A stretch of 64,000 nucleotides of DNA from Christiangramia sp. OXR-203. GTDB lineage: Bacteria; Bacteroidota; Bacteroidia; Flavobacteriales; Flavobacteriaceae. Under the pieces are notes generated by a model. It was not told the DNA's origin, made no database searches, and saw only the letters and a program-made list of their open reading frames with translations. Positions within the stretch are counted from its first letter, which is position 1, and the number at the start of each line of letters is the position of its first letter. Location of the stretch: assembly GCF_034372165.1 (NCBI RefSeq), contig NZ_CP139698.1, positions 434,001 to 498,000 of the forward strand, in the 5' to 3' direction. The position numbers were made by a program, and so were the translations under genes. Shown piece after piece: positions 7,140 through 15,836 of the stretch.

Positions 7140-7276
7140 TAGCTCTCATAAGATTTTTCTTACTTTATTTTGTTCATATCGTCTTAATAACTAGGTTCTA
7201 AAGTCTTTATTTACAGAGCTTTAATAAGTCGTTTTTTGCCTAAATTATTCCTGCTTAACTTTTAATTACTAGTGAT

Positions 7277-10200
7277 TTGAGACTATCTAATTTAGTGTTC
7301 CGGTTATTCCTTGCAGTATTTATGGGAATGATTGTGAAGGGTACGGCGCAGGTTCATAAATCCTTGCAGGAAGTCAGCATGATCAATAGCTTTACAAATG
7401 CTGAAAATGTCCATATACAGCAGGCTAACGGGGATCATCTCTGGATCACTACGCCACTCAAAGTCATTCGATATAACTCTGCGGAAGTAGAGGATTACAA
7501 TAAATTTCGGGGTATTCCATCTGAAATCGGGAAACAATATAGTGCTACTTTGACAGATTCCAGGGGTCAGGTGTGGCTTACCGGAGACAAAGGTATAGCT
7601 ATTCTCGAGAGCGGAAAACAGGATTTTAGATATGTTAGTTCCATGCCCGGGAAGGTCTATGAGATGCTGGAGGACCCGGCGGGTCAGTTATGGCTGGCTG
7701 CAGAAAACGGTGTTTTCAAGCTGAACGTCGATTCTAAAGCAAAGGATTTTGGACTGTCAAGATTTGTTTCTGAAAATACTCAGGCAAGCACATCCACTAT
7801 TTTTAACGATGAAATCATCTTTGCCGGGCCAAATGCTGTTATTGCCATTAATAGAAAATCCGGTAAATTCAGACGTCTTAAAACTTCGTATTATGAAAAT
7901 TTGGAGTTTACAGCACTTTTACCACTCAGCAATAAATTGTTGCTGGCTACCAACAGGCAGGGGATGTTTGAATTCGATGCACAACTGGACAGATTTCAGA
8001 AAATCTACAGGTTACCATTCGATCTTACTAGGGGTCATATAACAGATTTACTCAAGACCAACGAAAAGATCATTGCCCTAACCCGTGACAATGGCGTGTA
8101 CAAATTTGATGAGGAACTAAAATTTATTAAAAAAGAAGAAAGTTTTCCGAAGCAATTATTTGCAGCCCAGTTAAATGATGAAAATTTACTCTGGTTAGTT
8201 GGAAATGACGGACTCTATCTGAAAAATCTATCTTCAGAATCCATTTGGCAGCTACACCATGATCCTGCGAAATATTCGAGTCTGGCAGGCAATAGGTTGA
8301 GTGCCATGGCCACAGATTCTCGTGGATACGTGTGGTTTGGAACCAGTGAAGGCCTGAGTATCTGGAATCCTGAGACCGATCGCTATAGTCATATCAAAAA
8401 TTTAAACTATAAAAAGGCCCGACAGAATCCCGATAAGATAACTTCCATTGCTGCTAACGGGCAATATGTTTGGGTGGCGACCAGTGAAGATGGCGTGTAT
8501 AAGATTAATATCAATACACTTCTTAGAGCTCATTATGCACCAACCGCACTTTACAAAACAGAGGTTCTGGAAGCTAATACCTTATTTATTGATTCTTCTG
8601 AAAATACATGGATTGGTGGCGAGGCCGGCTATTTGACCAGGATTAGTACTTCCAATGAGATTAAAACCTTTCCTCTAAAAGAAGTTCAGGCAATTGCAGA
8701 ACTCGGACCCAGGAAACTGATCGTCGCAACCAGGAATCGTGTTCATTCCATAGATCCCATTAGTGGTCGTATTAGCGATCTTGATAAGCTTACTGCCAGC
8801 GAAACGATGCATTATTATGCGATCAATCAATTGTACATCACGCAGGAGGGTATGGGCTTGTTTGCAACAGAAGGAACAGGTTTGATCGCGTACAATTTCG
8901 AAACGGAAGCTTTAGAGATCTTTGATGAAGACTTTGGGTTACCGTCTAATAATGTGGAAGGAGTGATCGTGGAGGATGAAAATTACTGGATCTCTACAGA
9001 AGAAGGTCTTGCCAGTTATGATCCAAGCGAAAAGAGCCTGAGAGTTTTTAGTGAATTGAACGGACTTACAACTTCTGAACTAACTACAGGTTTTACTAAA
9101 ATGACGAACGGATCCCTTGTCCTGGGGACAGCGAAAGGGGTTAATATTTTTAAGCCGAAAAGTATGCTGGCGCAGCAGGAGCTGAAACCTGAAGTGGAAT
9201 TTAGAACTCTTATGCAGGCTTCAGTTCATAATGAAAAGCAAAGAAGAATCTCATTGTTGAGTGGTTCGATCATCGAAGTAAAAGAAAATACTGGTTTTCA
9301 GGTAGCCTTCCAGGGATTATCATTCTGGTCGCCAGAGGATTTGTTATATAGCTGGAGAATGCAGGGAATTGAAGATGAATGGTCCAAACCTTCAAAAGTG
9401 AATTCAGCCAGTTATGCCGGTCTTCCGCCGGGCAATTACATGTTCGAAGTAAGGTCAAAACTACCAAATTCCAGTTGGTCTGAAGTTAAACAGATTCCCG
9501 TAGAAGTTGCTGCAGTATCAGGAGGAATTGGGGTTGTGTATTTATTTATGGGAATTGGAATTATAGCGGCCGTGATCATATTTGCATATGTATTCGTGCT
9601 TCGTTCGAGAAATGCCGACAGGCAGGCCAGGGAAGAACTTAGAGCAAAACTGCAACAGGAGTTTAAGAAACCTGTAGAAAGCGCGGTACAATCCTTAAGT
9701 AAGATCTCAGCTTCCACCGATGCCGACAAACAGGAGGATTTACAACGATATGCTGCAAGGTTTGATGATCTTTTCAACCAGATCCTGAATTTCAATTATG
9801 AAGAATCTGTTTTTGAAATTTCCAGTATAAAATTAGACGCACATCTTCCAGAGGTAGTAAATGAGATCGAACCGGTCTACAAATTGAAAGATCTTGATTT
9901 GATCGTTAATAACCATTGGGGAGAAGAACCTTTTTATTACAATCTCGAGATGCTGGATAAGATCTTTTTTAGTTTGATATCGGGCAGTGCCGGCTATTCG
10001 GTTAAAAAAGGAAAGGTTATTGTAAATCTTATTCGCACTGGAGTTGGAGATTTAAAAATTCAGATCACAGATACAGGAAAAGGAATCCCTGAGCAGGATA
10101 TTAAAGTGCTGGAAAAGAAGCGTAGTCTGGATCAACGAATGAAATTTAGAGATAAGAGCGGACTTCGTTATATCCTCAAAGCTATGGAACTCATTAATAA

Positions 10201-11125
10201 AGCAGGGGGAAGCTTCAATTTTGAAACGCAGAGTAATGAAGGTTCCACATACACGGCTGTATTAAAGAACAGGCAGGAAGATTATCGCAGGGTGCCACAA
10301 CGTGCTGCCGGTATCCTGCAGTCTAAAAACACTCAGAAGGCAATTTCTGAATCTCTTCCGAAGGAAATTGAGAATATTAGTGGCAGTAAGATATTGATCA
10401 TTGATTCTGAAACTTCTTCCAGGGAGATATTAGCGAATTCCATAGGGCAGCATTGCCAGGTTTATCAGGCTGTAACGGCTGAAGAGGGCATTGAAAAAGC
10501 AAGCATGATCTTCCCAGATATCATTATTGCAGCGAGTATGCTATCAGATATGAACACTATTCAGCTATCTAAAATGCTTAGGCGTAATCCTGCACTCAAT
10601 CATATCAATATTTTTATGATCACTAGCGAGGGACAGCAATTTGATACAGAACAGGTAGCTGAAATCTCAGAACTTATCAGTGAACCTTTGAATATGTCAT
10701 TACTCATGAAAAAGATCGCTTCAACTTTGAAAAGTCAGCAGGAATTTCGAGAAGGCTTTATCAACAGTCATTTGCAAAGTGGTGACATAGTATACAAGTC
10801 TGAACGTGATAGAAAATTTATTCAGGAATCAAAACAGACTATCCTTGATAATATCGAAAAAGATAATTTCACAGTGCACGATCTTAGCGCATCCTTAGGT
10901 ATTTCGAGTAACACATTGTTTATGAAACTTAAAAGTCTGGTGAATCTTTCGCCTCAGGAATTTATAGAATTCGTACACGCAGAATACGGTAGAGAATTGC
11001 TGAACGATGGAGATTTTACTACAATGGAGGTTGCCTACAAGGCTGGATTTTCGAGTCCAAAACGCCTTCAGGAAAGTCTGAAAAAGTTCTACGGAAAAGA
11101 TTATAACTCTATTGTAGAGCGATAA
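7277..11125 (+). CDS. Hybrid two-component-like regulator with degenerate kinase and receiver
   Basis: This 1282-residue inner-membrane protein has the full HTCS layout. It starts with a signal/anchor (1-25), then periplasmic two-component-regulator propeller repeats (30-650) and a Y_Y_Y domain (670-745). A transmembrane helix (756-775), HisKA-like helices (785-850), HATPase (888-998), receiver (1036-1155) and AraC helix-turn-helix (1180-1282) follow. Key residues are missing. The H-box reads Q794-EFKKP where His is expected, the N-box reads S899-LISGS, the receiver phospho-Asp is A1086 (PDIIIAASM), and the conserved receiver Lys is E1136. The ATP-lid DTGKGIP motif survives. The start is a TTG, the only codon that includes the whole signal helix. 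It converges on a GH31/glgB operon, suggesting control of alpha-glucan use. Confidence 0.9.
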   Translation: MRLSNLVFRLFLAVFMGMIVKGTAQVHKSLQEVSMINSFTNAENVHIQQANGDHLWITTPLKVIRYNSAEVEDYNKFRGIPSEIGKQYSATLTDSRGQVWLTGDKGIAILESGKQDFRYVSSMPGKVYEMLEDPAGQLWLAAENGVFKLNVDSKAKDFGLSRFVSENTQASTSTIFNDEIIFAGPNAVIAINRKSGKFRRLKTSYYENLEFTALLPLSNKLLLATNRQGMFEFDAQLDRFQKIYRLPFDLTRGHITDLLKTNEKIIALTRDNGVYKFDEELKFIKKEESFPKQLFAAQLNDENLLWLVGNDGLYLKNLSSESIWQLHHDPAKYSSLAGNRLSAMATDSRGYVWFGTSEGLSIWNPETDRYSHIKNLNYKKARQNPDKITSIAANGQYVWVATSEDGVYKININTLLRAHYAPTALYKTEVLEANTLFIDSSENTWIGGEAGYLTRISTSNEIKTFPLKEVQAIAELGPRKLIVATRNRVHSIDPISGRISDLDKLTASETMHYYAINQLYITQEGMGLFATEGTGLIAYNFETEALEIFDEDFGLPSNNVEGVIVEDENYWISTEEGLASYDPSEKSLRVFSELNGLTTSELTTGFTKMTNGSLVLGTAKGVNIFKPKSMLAQQELKPEVEFRTLMQASVHNEKQRRISLLSGSIIEVKENTGFQVAFQGLSFWSPEDLLYSWRMQGIEDEWSKPSKVNSASYAGLPPGNYMFEVRSKLPNSSWSEVKQIPVEVAAVSGGIGVVYLFMGIGIIAAVIIFAYVFVLRSRNADRQAREELRAKLQQEFKKPVESAVQSLSKISASTDADKQEDLQRYAARFDDLFNQILNFNYEESVFEISSIKLDAHLPEVVNEIEPVYKLKDLDLIVNNHWGEEPFYYNLEMLDKIFFSLISGSAGYSVKKGKVIVNLIRTGVGDLKIQITDTGKGIPEQDIKVLEKKRSLDQRMKFRDKSGLRYILKAMELINKAGGSFNFETQSNEGSTYTAVLKNRQEDYRRVPQRAAGILQSKNTQKAISESLPKEIENISGSKILIIDSETSSREILANSIGQHCQVYQAVTAEEGIEKASMIFPDIIIAASMLSDMNTIQLSKMLRRNPALNHINIFMITSEGQQFDTEQVAEISELISEPLNMSLLMKKIASTLKSQQEFREGFINSHLQSGDIVYKSERDRKFIQESKQTILDNIEKDNFTVHDLSASLGISSNTLFMKLKSLVNLSPQEFIEFVHAEYGRELLNDGDFTTMEVAYKAGFSSPKRLQESLKKFYGKDYNSIVER

Positions 11126-11146: not shown

Positions 11147-11176
11147 AAAAGCCTGTTCGTCAAGAACAGGCTTTTT
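11147..11176. terminator. Bidirectional intrinsic terminator
   Basis: AAAAGCCTGTTC, a five-base loop and GAACAGGCTTTTT form a strong hairpin between the convergent regulator and alpha-glucosidase genes, with A and T runs for both directions. Confidence 0.85.
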
Positions 11177-11195: not shown

Positions 11196-13595
11196 TTATC
11201 CTACCAGTTGTAGTTCACTAAAATCCTTCTTTATGATCATACTTTTTTCTTCAGCATTGTATTGAAGTGTTTCTAACGGCACTTCTTCATTTTCGTAGAA
11301 TACTCGTCTAATTTCAAATGGAAGTCCGTGTAAATTCAGTTTAAAGGTGTCATAGGAAGCTGAGAACTTTCCGCTCTTATGCTGCTGGATGATCACCTCA
11401 TCTTCCTTACCAGTCAGCTTGAATGTGCGAAGGCTATAAATATTTTGTCGGTATTCATACCCATCATGCGCATCTTCATAAAATTCGGAATTCTCTTTTC
11501 CCAGTTTGTAATATACATCAAGCGTCATTTGTTCGATCTCTACCTGATCTACATATTGCTGGATTGGGTATTTAGGAATTATCGCTCCGGCCTTGATAAA
11601 TATTGGTACGATATCAAGTGGTGCGTCAACCCAAATTTCCTTACCACCATTTACCAGGTCGTCGCTCCAGAAGTTGTACCACTGGCCTCTTGGAATATAC
11701 ATTCTACGTCCCTGTACATTTGGTTCCTGAATTGGGCATACGAGGATCTGATTTCCAAAGATAAATTCATCAGCTCTATAGTGGGTTTGCACATCTTCCT
11801 GGTCAAAATACACCAGAGGTTTTAGAATTGGCTGACCTTCCTGTACATAGTTATAGAACGCGGTATATAAATATGGCAATAGCTGATAACGTAATTCTAC
11901 GAACTTCCTGCTAATATCAAGTACGTCCTCACCAAAAAACCATGGTTCCTGTTCGCCATGATCTCCCGAGGAATGAACCCGGCAGAAAGGATGAAAAATT
12001 CCAAGTTGTATCCATCTGGTATAAAGTTCTCCGGAAGGCTGCTCGGCAAAACCGCCAATATCAGATCCGGCAAAGCTCATTCCGCTCATACAAAGTCTTT
12101 GTATCTGGACATTTGCAAGCCATAAATGTTCCCAGGTAGCTACGTTGTCACCTGTCCAGGTCGAAGTATAGCGCTGTCCTCCAGAATAATTTGCTCTGGT
12201 GATAATAAACGGACGCTTCGGGAAATTGAACTTTTTAACTCCTTCATAGGTAGCTCTCGCCATCTGCATTCCGTAGATATTATGAGCTTTTCTATGGCTA
12301 CATGCATGACCATCATAATCATGTCTAACATCCAGCGGAAACGTTTTTCCTGGAACCTCCATTACTGCAGGTTCGTTCATATCGTTCCAGACTCCTTTTA
12401 CTCCAATTTCACCAATAAGTTCCCTGTATAAACCGCTCCACCATTCACGTACATCTGGATTGGTGAAATCTGGGAAGTAACACTCTCCCGGCCAAACCTT
12501 ACCTCGCATATATGGTCCATCTGCCCGGCGGCAGAAATAGTCTTTGTCTAAAGCTTCTTTAAAAACATCATAGTTCAGGTCTATTTTAATCCCTGGATCA
12601 ATGATGGCAACGGTTTTAAAACCGTCTTCTTCCAGTTCACGAACCATTCGTTTAGGATCTGGAAAAAATTCTTTGTTCCAGGTGAAGCAACGGAAACCTT
12701 CCATGTAGTCAATATCCAAATAGATCGCATCACATGGAAAATTCAATTCCCTGAATTTTGAGGTGATCTCCTTGACCTTGCTTTCAGGATAATAACTCCA
12801 TTTACACTGGTGAAATCCTAATGCCCACATTGGTGGCAATTCCGGTTTACCGGTAAGATCTGTATATGTTGTGAGGACATCAGTCATTTGCGGACCGTAA
12901 ATGAAGTAATAATTCATCTCCCCGCCATCTGCCCAGAAGCTGGTTACATTTCTACGTTCACTACAAAAATCAAAATGTGTTTTAAATGTGTTGTCGAAAA
13001 ATATTCCGTAGGAAATATTCTGTTGTAGCCCCATGTAGAAAGGAACAGCTTTATAAAGTTCGTTCGTATCTTTTCCGTAAGCATATTGATCTGTATTCCA
13101 GAGGCTTAGCCTTTTACCCTTCAAATTGAAGTTGGTAGGCTTGTCTCCAAGTCCGAAAAAGCTTTCCTGGTCTTTCGAAGATTTGCTCATTTTCACAAAG
13201 TTCCCTCCAAACTCAAAACTTTCTTCCCAGTGAAAACCTAGTTCGTCTTCCAGAATGATTTTGCCACTATGTTCATACATACCCACACGCAGATCGTCCT
13301 TTGCCACTTTACAAATGAACTTTTCAGTCTTTACGACCACGTGTGTGTCGTCTTCTGAAATTTCCAGGTGGTTAAAACCATGAGGATGGTTTTGATCTAC
13401 TGCATATGAAAAGTCATTCTCAAAAATACCATTCGTGGTATATCGAAAACGCATCATGTTATCCCGAAGTATCGTTAGCTGCAGCCTTACACCATTTTTA
13501 GTGATAAAATTGACGGTATCCTGATCGTGTTCGTGAGATATCAGGCCCGAAGGGTATAAATTCCCCTTATGTTCAAGTTCTGTATTCGTAATCAT
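11196..13595 (-). CDS. Glycoside hydrolase family 31 alpha-glucosidase
   Basis: This 799-residue retaining alpha-glucosidase has an N-terminal galactose-mutarotase-like beta domain (about 20-230), a catalytic TIM barrel (about 245-590) and C-terminal beta domains. The nucleophile is D405 in the GH31 signature WNDMNEP and the acid/base is D483 in STWTGDN; DAIYLDIDYMEGFRCFTW, typical of the active-site entrance, is also present. No signal peptide is seen, so it probably acts in the cytoplasm on malto-oligosaccharides or glycogen fragments. The gene lies 64 bases after glgB on the same strand and is probably its operon partner. Alpha-xylosidase activity cannot be excluded from sequence alone, but the glgB context favours alpha-glucan. 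Confidence 0.93.
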   Translation of the reverse strand: MITNTELEHKGNLYPSGLISHEHDQDTVNFITKNGVRLQLTILRDNMMRFRYTTNGIFENDFSYAVDQNHPHGFNHLEISEDDTHVVVKTEKFICKVAKDDLRVGMYEHSGKIILEDELGFHWEESFEFGGNFVKMSKSSKDQESFFGLGDKPTNFNLKGKRLSLWNTDQYAYGKDTNELYKAVPFYMGLQQNISYGIFFDNTFKTHFDFCSERRNVTSFWADGGEMNYYFIYGPQMTDVLTTYTDLTGKPELPPMWALGFHQCKWSYYPESKVKEITSKFRELNFPCDAIYLDIDYMEGFRCFTWNKEFFPDPKRMVRELEEDGFKTVAIIDPGIKIDLNYDVFKEALDKDYFCRRADGPYMRGKVWPGECYFPDFTNPDVREWWSGLYRELIGEIGVKGVWNDMNEPAVMEVPGKTFPLDVRHDYDGHACSHRKAHNIYGMQMARATYEGVKKFNFPKRPFIITRANYSGGQRYTSTWTGDNVATWEHLWLANVQIQRLCMSGMSFAGSDIGGFAEQPSGELYTRWIQLGIFHPFCRVHSSGDHGEQEPWFFGEDVLDISRKFVELRYQLLPYLYTAFYNYVQEGQPILKPLVYFDQEDVQTHYRADEFIFGNQILVCPIQEPNVQGRRMYIPRGQWYNFWSDDLVNGGKEIWVDAPLDIVPIFIKAGAIIPKYPIQQYVDQVEIEQMTLDVYYKLGKENSEFYEDAHDGYEYRQNIYSLRTFKLTGKEDEVIIQQHKSGKFSASYDTFKLNLHGLPFEIRRVFYENEEVPLETLQYNAEEKSMIIKKDFSELQLVG

Positions 13596-13659
13596 TTTTC
13601 TTAGCTTCTAATTATTCCGGCGATCAATATTTGAGGCCAGAGGATGTTTTTTTTTGATA

Positions 13660-15567
13660 TTATGCTAGTTTGAAGACCACTGTTGCGAGTGGAGGAATAG
13701 TAATTTTTGCTGAATATTCTTTCCCGTGGAAAGCTTCTTTATCGATCTTAATAGCATTATTCGTCACTCCAGATCCGCCGTATTTCGCAGCATCTGAATT
13801 GAATATTTCTTTTAGCCTTCCATTCTTCGGAAGACCAATAGTATATTCTTTCAAAACAGTGGGAGTAAAATTACAGACAACGGCCAGAATTTCTTTTTCT
13901 GAAGTTCCCTTTCTCAGATAACTGATTACCGAATTCTGATTGTCATCAAATGAGATCCATTCAAATCCTTCTTCACTGAACTGATTATCATATAATGCAG
14001 GTTGTTTTTTATAAAGTATGTTGAGGTCGGTAAGTGCTTTCTTGATACCATGATGAGAATCCTGCTCCAGCAAGTGCCAGTCCAGGCTACTATTGTAGTT
14101 CCATTCTGCATACTGTCCTAGCTCAGCTCCCATGAATAAAAGTTTCGCTCCGGGATGGGTATACATATAACTATACATCAATCTCAAATTTGCAAATCGC
14201 TGCCAGTCGTCAGCCGGCATTCTGCTAAGTAATGATTTTTTCCCGTAGACAACTTCATCGTGACTTAAAGGCAATACAAAGTTCTCACTAAATGTATAGG
14301 TCATACTAAAAGTGATATCATTTTGGTGATACCTGCGATGAATAGGATCCTTTTTAAAATATTCCAGTGTATCGTGCATCCAGCCCATCATCCATTTCAT
14401 TCCAAAACCTAAACCTCCATGACTTACCGGTCTGGAAACTTTCGGAAATGAGGTGGATTCTTCAGCAATTGTTTGTACTCCCTGGAAGCTGCTATATACT
14501 TCAGTATTGAGATCTTTTATAAAGCTAATGGCATCAAGGTTTTCTCTTCCGCCTTCAGCATTAGGTTCCCACTCACCATCTTCTCTTGAGTAATCGAGGT
14601 ATAACATACTAGCTACGGCGTCTACTCGAAGCCCGTCAATATGATATTTATCCAGCCAGAAAACTGCGTTGCTTATCAAAAAGGACCGAACTTCATTTCT
14701 GCCATAATTAAAAATTAGACTTTTCCAGTCCTGGTGATAACCTTTGCGGGGATCTGGGTGTTCGTATAGATGTGAACCATCAAATCTTCCTAGACCATGT
14801 TTGTCTTCAGGGAAATGGGATGGTACCCAATCCAGAATGACTCCAATTCCAGCTTTGTGAAAGGCATCCAGCAGTTGCATGAATTCCTGGGGATCGCCAA
14901 ACCTGGAGGTAGGGGCAAAGTATCCGGTTAATTGATAACCCCAGCTCGGGTCATAAGGGAATTCCATTATTGGCATGAATTCTACATGCGTAAACTCCAT
15001 TTCCTTTACATAACTTACCAATTCATCTGCCATTTCAAGGTAAGTAAGAGAACGGTTTTCAAGGGTGTTCTTTCTCCAGGAGCCAAGATGAACTTCATAA
15101 ACAGAATAAGGCTTATCCAGTGCATTTACCTCTTCACGACGAGACATGAACTTCTTGTCATTCCATTTGTAATCCAGATCCCAGACAATAGAAGCCGTAT
15201 TTGGTGGATGTTCACATCTTAAAGCGTAAGGATCAGCCTTTTCAAGAATTTCTCCGTTGTTATTTGATATTATTCTGAATTTATATTTATCTCCTTTCTT
15301 AGCACCCGGAATAAAACCTTCCCAGATGCCACTTTCATCCCAGCGTACATTTAAAGGATGGTCATCAATATTCCAGTAATTAAAATCTCCAATTACAGAA
15401 ACCGACTTTGCTGAGGGAGCCCAGACAGAAAAGTAAACTCCTTCCTGTCCTTCATGTGTTATTAAATGAGCGCCGAACTTTTCGTACAGTCTGTAATGTT
15501 TACCCGATCTAAAAAGTGAAATGTCAAATTCTGTAAATAATGAGTAAACCTGTACTTCCTGTTTCAT
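13660..15567 (-). CDS. glgB: 1,4-alpha-glucan branching enzyme
   Basis: This 635-residue GH13 enzyme introduces alpha-1,6 branches into glycogen. It has an N-terminal CBM48 module (about 45-130, FSVWAPSAKSVSVIGDFNYW), the barrel with the substrate-binding EFMPIMEFPYDPSWGYQ signature, the nucleophile D316 in GLRVDAVASM, the acid/base Glu in IAEEST (E369/E370), the third acid in LSHDEVV, and a C-terminal all-beta domain. Length is typical of GlgB without the extra N-terminal module. It is the first gene of a pair with the GH31 alpha-glucosidase; no glycogen synthase or GlgC is in the window. Confidence 0.96.
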   Translation of the reverse strand: MKQEVQVYSLFTEFDISLFRSGKHYRLYEKFGAHLITHEGQEGVYFSVWAPSAKSVSVIGDFNYWNIDDHPLNVRWDESGIWEGFIPGAKKGDKYKFRIISNNNGEILEKADPYALRCEHPPNTASIVWDLDYKWNDKKFMSRREEVNALDKPYSVYEVHLGSWRKNTLENRSLTYLEMADELVSYVKEMEFTHVEFMPIMEFPYDPSWGYQLTGYFAPTSRFGDPQEFMQLLDAFHKAGIGVILDWVPSHFPEDKHGLGRFDGSHLYEHPDPRKGYHQDWKSLIFNYGRNEVRSFLISNAVFWLDKYHIDGLRVDAVASMLYLDYSREDGEWEPNAEGGRENLDAISFIKDLNTEVYSSFQGVQTIAEESTSFPKVSRPVSHGGLGFGMKWMMGWMHDTLEYFKKDPIHRRYHQNDITFSMTYTFSENFVLPLSHDEVVYGKKSLLSRMPADDWQRFANLRLMYSYMYTHPGAKLLFMGAELGQYAEWNYNSSLDWHLLEQDSHHGIKKALTDLNILYKKQPALYDNQFSEEGFEWISFDDNQNSVISYLRKGTSEKEILAVVCNFTPTVLKEYTIGLPKNGRLKEIFNSDAAKYGGSGVTNNAIKIDKEAFHGKEYSAKITIPPLATVVFKLA

Positions 15568-15663: not shown

Positions 15664-15836
15664 ATAAAAATAACAAACTGATATTTAAAAATACCGGCAA
15701 TCCTAAAGTTGTTTCAGTTTTAGAGCTTTAATTGAGGAGTTTATAGTGAAATCTTGTATTCGTTTATAATTTGCTGAGGATTAAGTTCTAAACGGTTAAA
15801 TTATTGCAGATTTCCGAATAATATCGCTGCATAGAA

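Follow-up and report, generated by a model that had tools for sequence, protein, structure and literature searches.

The window, a 64,000-nt stretch of DNA from Christiangramia sp. OXR-203 (NZ_CP139698.1, positions 434,001-498,000, forward strand), contains on its plus strand a gene referred to here as pseudo-HTCS, the product of which is laid out as follows.

7170..7190, + strand: 21-bp element TTGTTnATATCnTnTTnATAA ahead of the gene, conserved in a 24-genome comparison
7277..11125, + strand: pseudo-HTCS gene, 1282 codons, TTG start, with an orthologue in 24/24 genomes of the genus
7349..9166, + strand: periplasmic beta-propeller sensor (Reg_prop), residues ~25-630, from sequence matches to the solved HTCS sensors 3v9f and 4a2l, limits by eye
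9329..9508, + strand: Y_Y_Y domain, residues 685-744 (E 5e-15)
9533..9604, + strand: probable transmembrane helix, residues ~753-776, a hydrophobic stretch seen in the translation
9629..9826, + strand: pseudo-DHp region, residues ~785-850, His replaced by Q794 (9656-9658), from alignment, limits by eye
9956..10270, + strand: pseudo-CA, matching HATPase_c over residues 894-998, with S899/G903 at the N-box, G1 kept but G2 residues lost, from Pfam and alignment
10391..10717, + strand: pseudo-receiver, residues 1039-1147, with S1044, A1086 (10532-10534) and E1136 (10682-10684), from Pfam and alignment
10454-10456, + strand: invariant C1060 inside the pseudo-receiver, from alignment
10601-10603, + strand: latch His H1109 inside the pseudo-receiver, from alignment
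10808..10810, + strand: latch Asp D1178 at the first DBD helix, motif as given in the available part of PMC11253607, mapped via the 12aw_A alignment
10883..11095, + strand: AraC-type HTH_18, residues 1203-1273, with latch Lys K1217 (10925-10927), from Pfam

Reading frame and domain order

The open frame at 7277-11125 has no internal stop across its 1282 codons, which bears out the original prediction of an intact gene, and the aligned start codon is TTG in all 24 orthologues. The element TTGTTnATATCnTnTTnATAA lies 84-88 bp ahead of that start in 24/24 genomes, exact in 23 and with a single mismatch in the other, and has one exact copy in its own genome. Pfam matches above cut-offs are to Reg_prop, Y_Y_Y, HATPase_c (894-998), Response_reg (PF00072; 1039-1147, E 1.6e-7, 31.9 bits against a cut-off of 30.2) and HTH_18 (1203-1273, 37.4 bits against 33.6). 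In other words, the protein carries a periplasmic propeller, Y_Y_Y, kinase, receiver and AraC HTH on a single chain, the complete HTCS order, and the claim that every expected domain is kept holds, with the proviso that HisKA itself is absent from its Pfam matches at E<=1, as against 5.5e-10 in L038, the one canonical relative scanned. Among four pseudo members scanned with Pfam, Response_reg falls below its cut-off in two; HTH_18 is still recognised in all four, the window protein giving the weakest match.

Loss of the phosphorelay residues

The 24 orthologues (24/24 genomes of the genus) were compared with a canonical set, the 15 nearest homologues from other genera. At the positions numbered as in the window protein, all 15 canonical proteins have H at 794, N and N at 899 and 903, E-D at 1043-1044, D at 1086 and K at 1136. 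Each substitution predicted in the window protein at the H-box (Q794), the N-box (S899, G903) and the receiver pocket (A1086, and Ser after D1043) was confirmed against these residues. Indeed, the losses run through the genus: the H-box His is missing in every orthologue (K in 19, Q in 5), neither N-box Asn is present in any, and the receiver Asp is replaced by A in 21, T in 2 and G in 1. The DD1 position is acidic in 24/24 and the DD2 Asp is gone in 23/24. The predicted replacement of the catalytic Lys by E1136 stands for the window protein but not for the genus, where Lys is retained in 20/24 and lost only in the window's four-species subclade. As to the claim that only an ATP-lid motif, DTGKGIP, survives, the motif is indeed kept (D932-x-G934-x-G936, 24/24), but it is the G1 box and not the ATP lid; several residues of the G2 box, GTGLG in relatives, are gone in 24/24.

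The description of the protein as stripped of its phosphorelay residues is therefore supported, since the loss extends to 24/24 species and no close relative with the intact His and Asp exists among the genus genomes. The same losses in 24 genomes reject sequencing error. Likewise, an alignment shift hiding a nearby His is rejected, as none of the invariant cytoplasmic His residues lies in the DHp region: these are 856, which 11/15 canonical relatives also have as His, the latch residue 1109, and 1201 in the HTH region. The pattern goes beyond chance, for of the other hybrid kinases that were looked at within Christiangramia, 26 of 26 retain H, N, N, the DD2 Asp, the receiver Asp and Lys. The receiver of the window protein is a pseudo-receiver, matching PF00072 with D, DD2 and K absent and T present, and its kinase module would be classed as a pseudo-histidine kinase, with HATPase/DHp homology, no His and an apparently impaired ATP site.

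Phosphate could nevertheless be supplied by a separate kinase, as the original prediction allowed, or be carried on another residue. Retention of the Lys in 20/24, the acidic DD1 in 24/24 and Thr1116 in the window protein are consistent with this, and a Ser/Thr-phosphorylated atypical regulator is mentioned in the accessible part of PMC12632262. The separate kinase is disfavoured, however, because the acceptor Asp is absent in 24/24; the DD2 Asp is absent in 23/24, the DHp region has no conserved His, and the ORFs of window positions 1-22000, which were read and in part scanned, revealed no separate kinase. Both forms of the idea appear very improbable. In this regard, the switch Thr is retained in 4/24 orthologues and Tyr(K-3) in 2/24, the window protein having Thr1116 and not the Tyr; the keepers of Thr1116 are the window's own four-genome subclade, such that this protein still has a remnant of the switch.

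Age of the loss and selection on the dead domains

In the tree the 24 orthologues form one clade (SH-aLRT 100) with the 15 canonical homologues as sister group, from which the phosphorelay appears most simply to have been lost once, before the sampled Christiangramia species diverged. Estimates of dN/dS by NG86 over 8 pairs, most of them with dS >1, show purifying selection on the dead DHp, CA and REC domains at the level of sequence, with values of 0.018-0.193 (20/24 computable); in the two closest pairs, at dS 0.25-0.50, these domains give 0.063-0.193 and the whole protein 0.068 and 0.076. The propeller gives 0.041-0.083 over the 8 pairs. Such low values in dead domains argue for an old, fixed conversion and not for decay, and recent decay is rejected by both dN/dS and the tree.

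A decaying pseudogene retained by chance is accordingly barely credible, being strongly contradicted by a frame open in 24/24, by the whole-protein dN/dS and by the conserved upstream element, even if the window's four-species subclade has a long branch and has lost more than the others (Lys1136 and the Pro at D+4); the earlier rejection of a decayed pseudogene is thus upheld. A class-wide survey of 345 genomes at E<=1e-80, a threshold that distant or independently derived pseudo-HTCS proteins would escape, matched the protein's own genome alone.

Mean identity within the genus is 0.749 for DHp, 0.735 for HTH and 0.572 for the propeller. The DHp region is therefore as conserved as the HTH, yet its identity to the canonical group is 0.236, which points to a constraint of a new kind. 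A kept and highly conserved DHp-type region might also be expected of a partner or dominant-negative subunit forming mixed dimers with intact HTCS proteins. Such a role is highly unlikely, given how little the region resembles its canonical counterpart and given that the protein's own genome holds one other match (E<=0.001) spanning kinase, receiver and HTH, at 25% identity.

Latch, switch and an invariant cysteine

A latch between receiver and DNA-binding domain (S/CHIP-DK) has been described in Bacteroides HTCS, in which, according to the portion of PMC11253607 available, latch substitutions permit DNA binding without phosphorylation. The latch residues H1109, D1178 and K1217 are each present in 24/24 orthologues, the Asp also in 15/15 canonical relatives. 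The first latch position is N, as it is in 14/15 canonical relatives, and the latch Pro is substituted in 23/24 orthologues (Asn in 21), such that the latch may work differently or stand permanently open.

It might be supposed from this that loss of the latch Pro and the phospho-switch leaves the HTH free at all times and the protein binds DNA constitutively, control being exerted through its amount. The latch substitutions just cited, the replaced Pro, the TTG start and the conserved upstream element all agree with such an arrangement. Against it, latch H, D and K are invariant, and the propeller, needless in a constitutive protein, is under purifying selection, so that we regard it as unlikely. 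The recognition-region changes R1211S, T1212N and Y1215F are fixed in 24/24, which makes DNA binding by pseudo-HTCS less than certain.

The receiver alpha1-beta2 region contains C1060, the sole invariant Cys of the cytoplasmic part, found in 24/24 members of the pseudo clade against Phe in 15/15 canonical relatives. A Cys at DD+19 in the alpha1-beta2 loop is redox-active according to the part of PMC12632262 available, and C1060 could similarly join two subunits by a disulfide, in the manner of the HP1021-type atypical regulators. However, it lies 2-3 residues off DD+19 and may be a buried packing residue, and a redox switch leaves retention of the propeller unexplained; this too is a very unlikely account of the whole protein.

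The facing glucan operon

Downstream, the gene meets a convergent pair across a terminator-like hairpin.

11147..11176, strand not assigned: hairpin with flanking A and T runs, terminator-like, between the convergent genes, read from the sequence
11196..13595, - strand: GH31 alpha-glucosidase-type gene, convergent neighbour (PF01055, E 1.8e-124)
13660..15567, - strand: glgB, 1,4-alpha-glucan branching enzyme (NF003811, 973.7 bits, cut-off 741)
15671..15715, - strand: block upstream of glgB resembling part of a conserved block upstream of the relatives' glgE, by-eye comparison

GH31 is convergent with the pseudo-HTCS gene in 24/24 genomes and glgB in 23, that is, in all whose contigs extend to it. 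The original prediction that the regulator faces a GH31-glgB pair is correct as to position, but most relatives carry a longer operon, glgE-mak-glgB-GH31. A search of the 24 genus genomes did not find glgE in seven, including the window's own, and pseudo-HTCS is retained in 7/7 of these, from which it follows that glgE cannot be the sole target. A classical glgC/glgA operon is rejected, both genes being at 0/24 above curated cut-offs (glgA-like matches reach ~240-260 bits against 328 in 22/24 genomes). A gene divergent from glgE, present in 14/16 loci with glgE, reads as a lipoprotein and was rejected as a regulator.

We infer that the glgE-mak-glgB-GH31 operon, here glgB-GH31, is the candidate target of pseudo-HTCS. 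When the two promoters were compared by profile, 0, 0 and 1 of 60 block shuffles (widths 10, 14 and 18) reached or exceeded the observed score; with AT-rich DNA and three widths tried, an operator common to both promoters is weakly suggested.

A probable regulator without phosphate

The residues that carry phosphate have been lost, yet the gene is preserved by selection; hence it probably signals through shape change alone. Of the readings left, signalling by conformation, as originally proposed, fits best, and retention of the REC-DBD latch residues favours it. On balance, then, pseudo-HTCS is probably a phosphate-free, membrane-tethered one-component regulator, of which ligand, target and mechanism are put forward here as a model. 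Ligand binding by the propeller/Y_Y_Y dimer would move the pseudo-DHp/pseudo-CA module; this movement, in place of phosphate, would open the H1109-D1178-K1217 latch; and the AraC domain so freed could bind its own promoter and/or that of glgE-mak-glgB-GH31, the operon target in Christiangramia sp. OXR-203 being glgB-GH31. More tentatively, and with somewhat less than even confidence, a complete HTCS may have become a purely mechanical switch controlling the GlgE-pathway glucan operon, in which dead kinase and receiver transmit force, the latch is the lock and pseudo-DHp movement the key, possibly with nucleotide at G1 or redox at Cys1060 as a second input. We know of no GlgE-pathway glucan operon under HTCS control.

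Relation to known systems and significance

The HTCS of Bacteroidota, of BT4124 and BT4663 type (PMC3404733 and the accessible part of PMC11253607), share the propeller, Y_Y_Y and kinase-receiver-HTH_18 order and the latch H/D/K. Pseudo-HTCS differs from them in having no phosphorylatable His or Asp and no N-box Asn, in having lost the switch Tyr in 22/24 and Thr in 20/24, and in adjoining an alpha-glucan operon, not SusC-SusD genes. The 15 nearest homologues, HTCS by SusC/SusD-like genes in other Flavobacteriaceae genera, have a similar length and domain order at 27-32% identity, with phosphorelay residues all intact; within ~20 kb around each, GH31 or glgB matches were found near 0/15.

Like the pseudo-receivers and aspartate-less receivers covered in the available part of PMC12632262, the protein matches PF00072 without D (24/24) or DD2 (23/24), but its receiver sits on one chain together with an AraC output domain and a kinase that is dead as well. 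As in the pseudo-histidine kinases DivL and RcsD, a kinase-like module is retained without His; the best NCBIfam match of the window protein is in fact RcsD (58.3 bits, far under the cut-off of 634). DivL and RcsD act on other phosphorelay proteins, whereas pseudo-HTCS has its output domain on its own chain. The principle is likely that of the transmembrane one-component regulators, TTRs (PMC10269533, in the part available), in which an outside signal leads to DNA binding through one membrane protein and no phosphate, and the architecture agrees with this; pseudo-HTCS, by contrast, descends from a full HTCS and still carries its signalling domains. In such parts of the open-licence PMC literature as were available, no report was found of an HTCS without phospho-sites, nor of GlgE with maltokinase in Flavobacteria.

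In every Christiangramia species sampled, pseudo-HTCS combines a dead kinase module and a dead receiver, the two partners of a phosphorelay, within a single chain. With an intact sister group and a described latch, it offers a natural experiment on chemistry versus mechanics within HTCS, and it hints that HTCS proteins are able to move away from SusCD loci and join storage-type alpha-glucan metabolism.

The protein and its phosphorelay residues

The pseudo-HTCS, a hybrid two-component regulator (HTCS) without phosphorelay residues, is encoded by a single intact gene.

7277–11125, + strand: pseudo-HTCS gene, 1282 codons in one uninterrupted frame that begins with TTG

Pfam recognises the two-component propeller, Y_Y_Y, HATPase_c, Response_reg and HTH_18 in the product and does not recognise HisKA, while PDB sequence matches include the HTCS sensors 3v9f and 4a2l and the HTCS receiver–HTH chain 12aw. 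The original prediction had listed Q794, S899, G903, S1044, A1086 and E1136 as replacing the phosphorelay residues, an assignment that comparison with canonical homologues bears out, subject to two corrections. The DTGKGIP motif, which had been called the ATP lid, is instead the G1 box. The loss of the receiver Lys is real in the window protein and is limited to its four-species subclade rather than being genus-wide.

An orthologue is present in all 24 Christiangramia genomes (the organism's own and 23 others searched), none with an internal stop, the 23 others being 40–95% identical to the window protein.

Residues at the phosphorelay positions in the 24 orthologues (DD1 and DD2, receiver acidic pocket)
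H-box: K 19, Q 5
N-box, first position: S 22, G 2
N-box, second position: G 21, A 2, S 1
G1 box: D, G, G in 24
DD1: E 20, D 4
DD2: N 12, S 7, G 3, A 1, D 1
Receiver Asp: A 21, T 2, G 1
Receiver Lys: K 20, E 3, Q 1

Two sets of proteins serve as controls. A search of 397 family genomes at E ≤ 1e-90 matched 17, of which two belong to the genus (one being the organism's own) and 15 to other genera, an earlier, overlapping family draw having matched in 12 of 249 genomes at E ≤ 1e-120. The 15 other-genus proteins, the nearest homologues from outside the genus and hereafter the canonical relatives, are 27–32% identical to the pseudo-HTCS and all carry H, N, N, E-D, D and K. H, N, N, the DD2 Asp and the receiver Asp and Lys are also retained in every one of 26 further hybrid kinases from Christiangramia, picked among the matches listed in the genus search (six loci and 20 regions, one from the window's own genome; some lack a propeller, and one, L139, aligns poorly except at the scored sites). 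No further member of the pseudo-HTCS group appeared at E ≤ 1e-80 among 345 genomes drawn from the class. Four HTCS-like kinases of the genus (L127, L134, L135 and L138) have the reverse pattern, with His and Asp intact and a degenerate G1 box.

Since 722 of 76,471 HisKA domains (0.9%) lack the His and 3,111 of 152,269 receiver domains (2.0%) lack the Asp (PMC12632262), each loss is singly uncommon but known. A search of the open-licence PMC literature found no report of an HTCS in which both losses are fixed across a genus.

Selection and history

The 24 proteins group together as a single clade (SH-aLRT 100), whose stem measures 1.47 changes per column and whose sister group is the 15 canonical relatives (support 92); the tree comes from a quick method whose tool warned of long branches meeting. 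Whole-protein dN/dS is 0.068 and 0.076 in the two closest pairs. Over eight pairs, the pseudo-kinase His region (DHp), the pseudo-ATPase domain (CA) and the pseudo-receiver (REC) give 0.018–0.193 (20 of 24 values computable); dS exceeds 1 in many of these, such that the two closest pairs (0.063–0.193) weigh most. The linker between REC and the AraC-type DNA-binding domain (HTH) differs, with values reaching 0.45–0.49 in these same pairs. Within the genus DHp is conserved about as well as HTH (0.749 and 0.735), yet in likeness to the canonical group it is the lowest of the cytoplasmic domains (DHp 0.236, CA 0.343, REC 0.375, HTH 0.516). Taken with the low dN/dS, this pattern looks like re-tooling under a new constraint, and not decay.

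The latch between receiver and DNA-binding domain

In Bacteroides HTCS, as described by Gao, Wu and Stock (2024, PMC11253607), REC keeps HTH inactive via an S/CHIP motif in REC together with D and K in HTH, and substitutions in this latch are described as releasing DNA binding without phosphate. Placed through the 12aw alignment and by spacing, the counterparts in the pseudo-HTCS are H1109, D1178 and K1217, each invariant in 24/24; among the 26 other genus kinases, just 14 have D at the 1178 position. Only one of the 24 orthologues still has the latch Pro (21 have Asn there), the phosphate-reading Thr is present only in the four of the window's own subclade, and the Tyr at K-3 persists in two, the window protein not among them. 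In other words, with H, D and K invariant and Thr and Tyr mostly lost, the lock appears largely retained and the known key lost.

In the HTH region, substitutions fixed relative to the canonical group (R1211S, T1212N, Y1215F, K1250M and N1260S) suggest a new DNA target. A less likely suggestion is redox input through C1060 (10454–10456), a Cys in all 24 pseudo-receivers where the 15 canonical relatives have Phe.

Upstream region

One short element precedes the gene throughout the genus.

7170–7190, + strand: 21-bp element TTGTTnATATCnTnTTnATAA, lying 84–88 bp before the start codon in 24/24 (23 exact, one with one mismatch)

The exact element occurs once in the organism's own genome; allowing up to three mismatches, the window holds seven copies against 1.07 expected from shuffles, the other six all with three mismatches. 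A promoter is one possible role for it, an operator for autoregulation another. The start codon (7277–7279) is TTG in all 24 orthologues, immediately preceded in most by conserved AT-rich sequence, a combination that may indicate low or leaderless translation.

Genomic neighbourhood

In all 24 genomes (22 loci, the window and one cut contig) GH31 is the convergent neighbour of the gene, and glgB comes next after GH31 in all 23 whose contigs extend that far. In most relatives this place holds a GlgE-pathway operon, glgE-mak-glgB-GH31 (window 11196–15567 compared with L103–L121). glgE was detected in 17 of the 24 genomes, the GlgE assignment being supported by PF11896 and PF21702 above cut-off; the other seven, the window's included, gave no glgE at E ≤ 1e-60 and retain glgB-GH31. 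In the 16 glgE genomes with an extended locus, glgE is followed by a putative maltokinase, and each of these genomes, read by eye, has maltokinase-like coding sequence immediately upstream of glgB; the seventeenth (G021) has contigs too short to show what adjoins glgE. The maltokinase name is only probable, as its TIGR02457 score (360.5 bits) falls below the cut-off of 375.

A conserved block upstream of glgE is common to 15 of the 16 loci, the sixteenth (L120) having a doubtful start as extracted. By eye, the region upstream of the window's glgB looks like part of this block, a resemblance that would be explained if a deletion had removed glgE and mak and left their promoter in place. A conserved lipoprotein-like gene (L109:4000-4983, + strand) is divergent from glgE in 14 of the 16 glgE loci; it also occurs near glgB in three glgE-less loci (L104, L111 and L114) and has no match in the window.

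No glgC or glgA scored above curated cut-offs in the 24 genomes, with sub-cut-off glgA-like matches in 22. Judged from gene content, the genus may produce alpha-glucan via GlgE, and some members via neither known route despite glgB.

Among ten GH31-glgB loci from other genera (L088–L097), none has an HTCS directly adjoining the pair; in L089 a weak HTCS-like stretch lies about 6–8 kb from it. Thirteen of the 15 canonical relatives are directly followed by genes whose translations read as SusC- and SusD-like (L074 and L081 are not), after which mostly come genes that are presumably GH3- and sulfatase-like.

Proposed mode of action and classification

At the level of sequence, a protein without phosphorelay residues has been conserved together with its latch residues and its neighbourhood. 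We infer that its ligand would derive from a glucan, that the latch would be opened by movement passing through the pseudo-kinase, and that it would act on the neighbouring operon. The protein lacks the catalytic residues that define an HTCS and is more aptly classed as a pseudo-kinase/pseudo-receiver regulator of HTCS descent, one that probably works like the one-component transmembrane regulators described in PMC10269533. The pseudo-HTCS is a good natural experiment for separating the chemistry of an HTCS from its mechanics.
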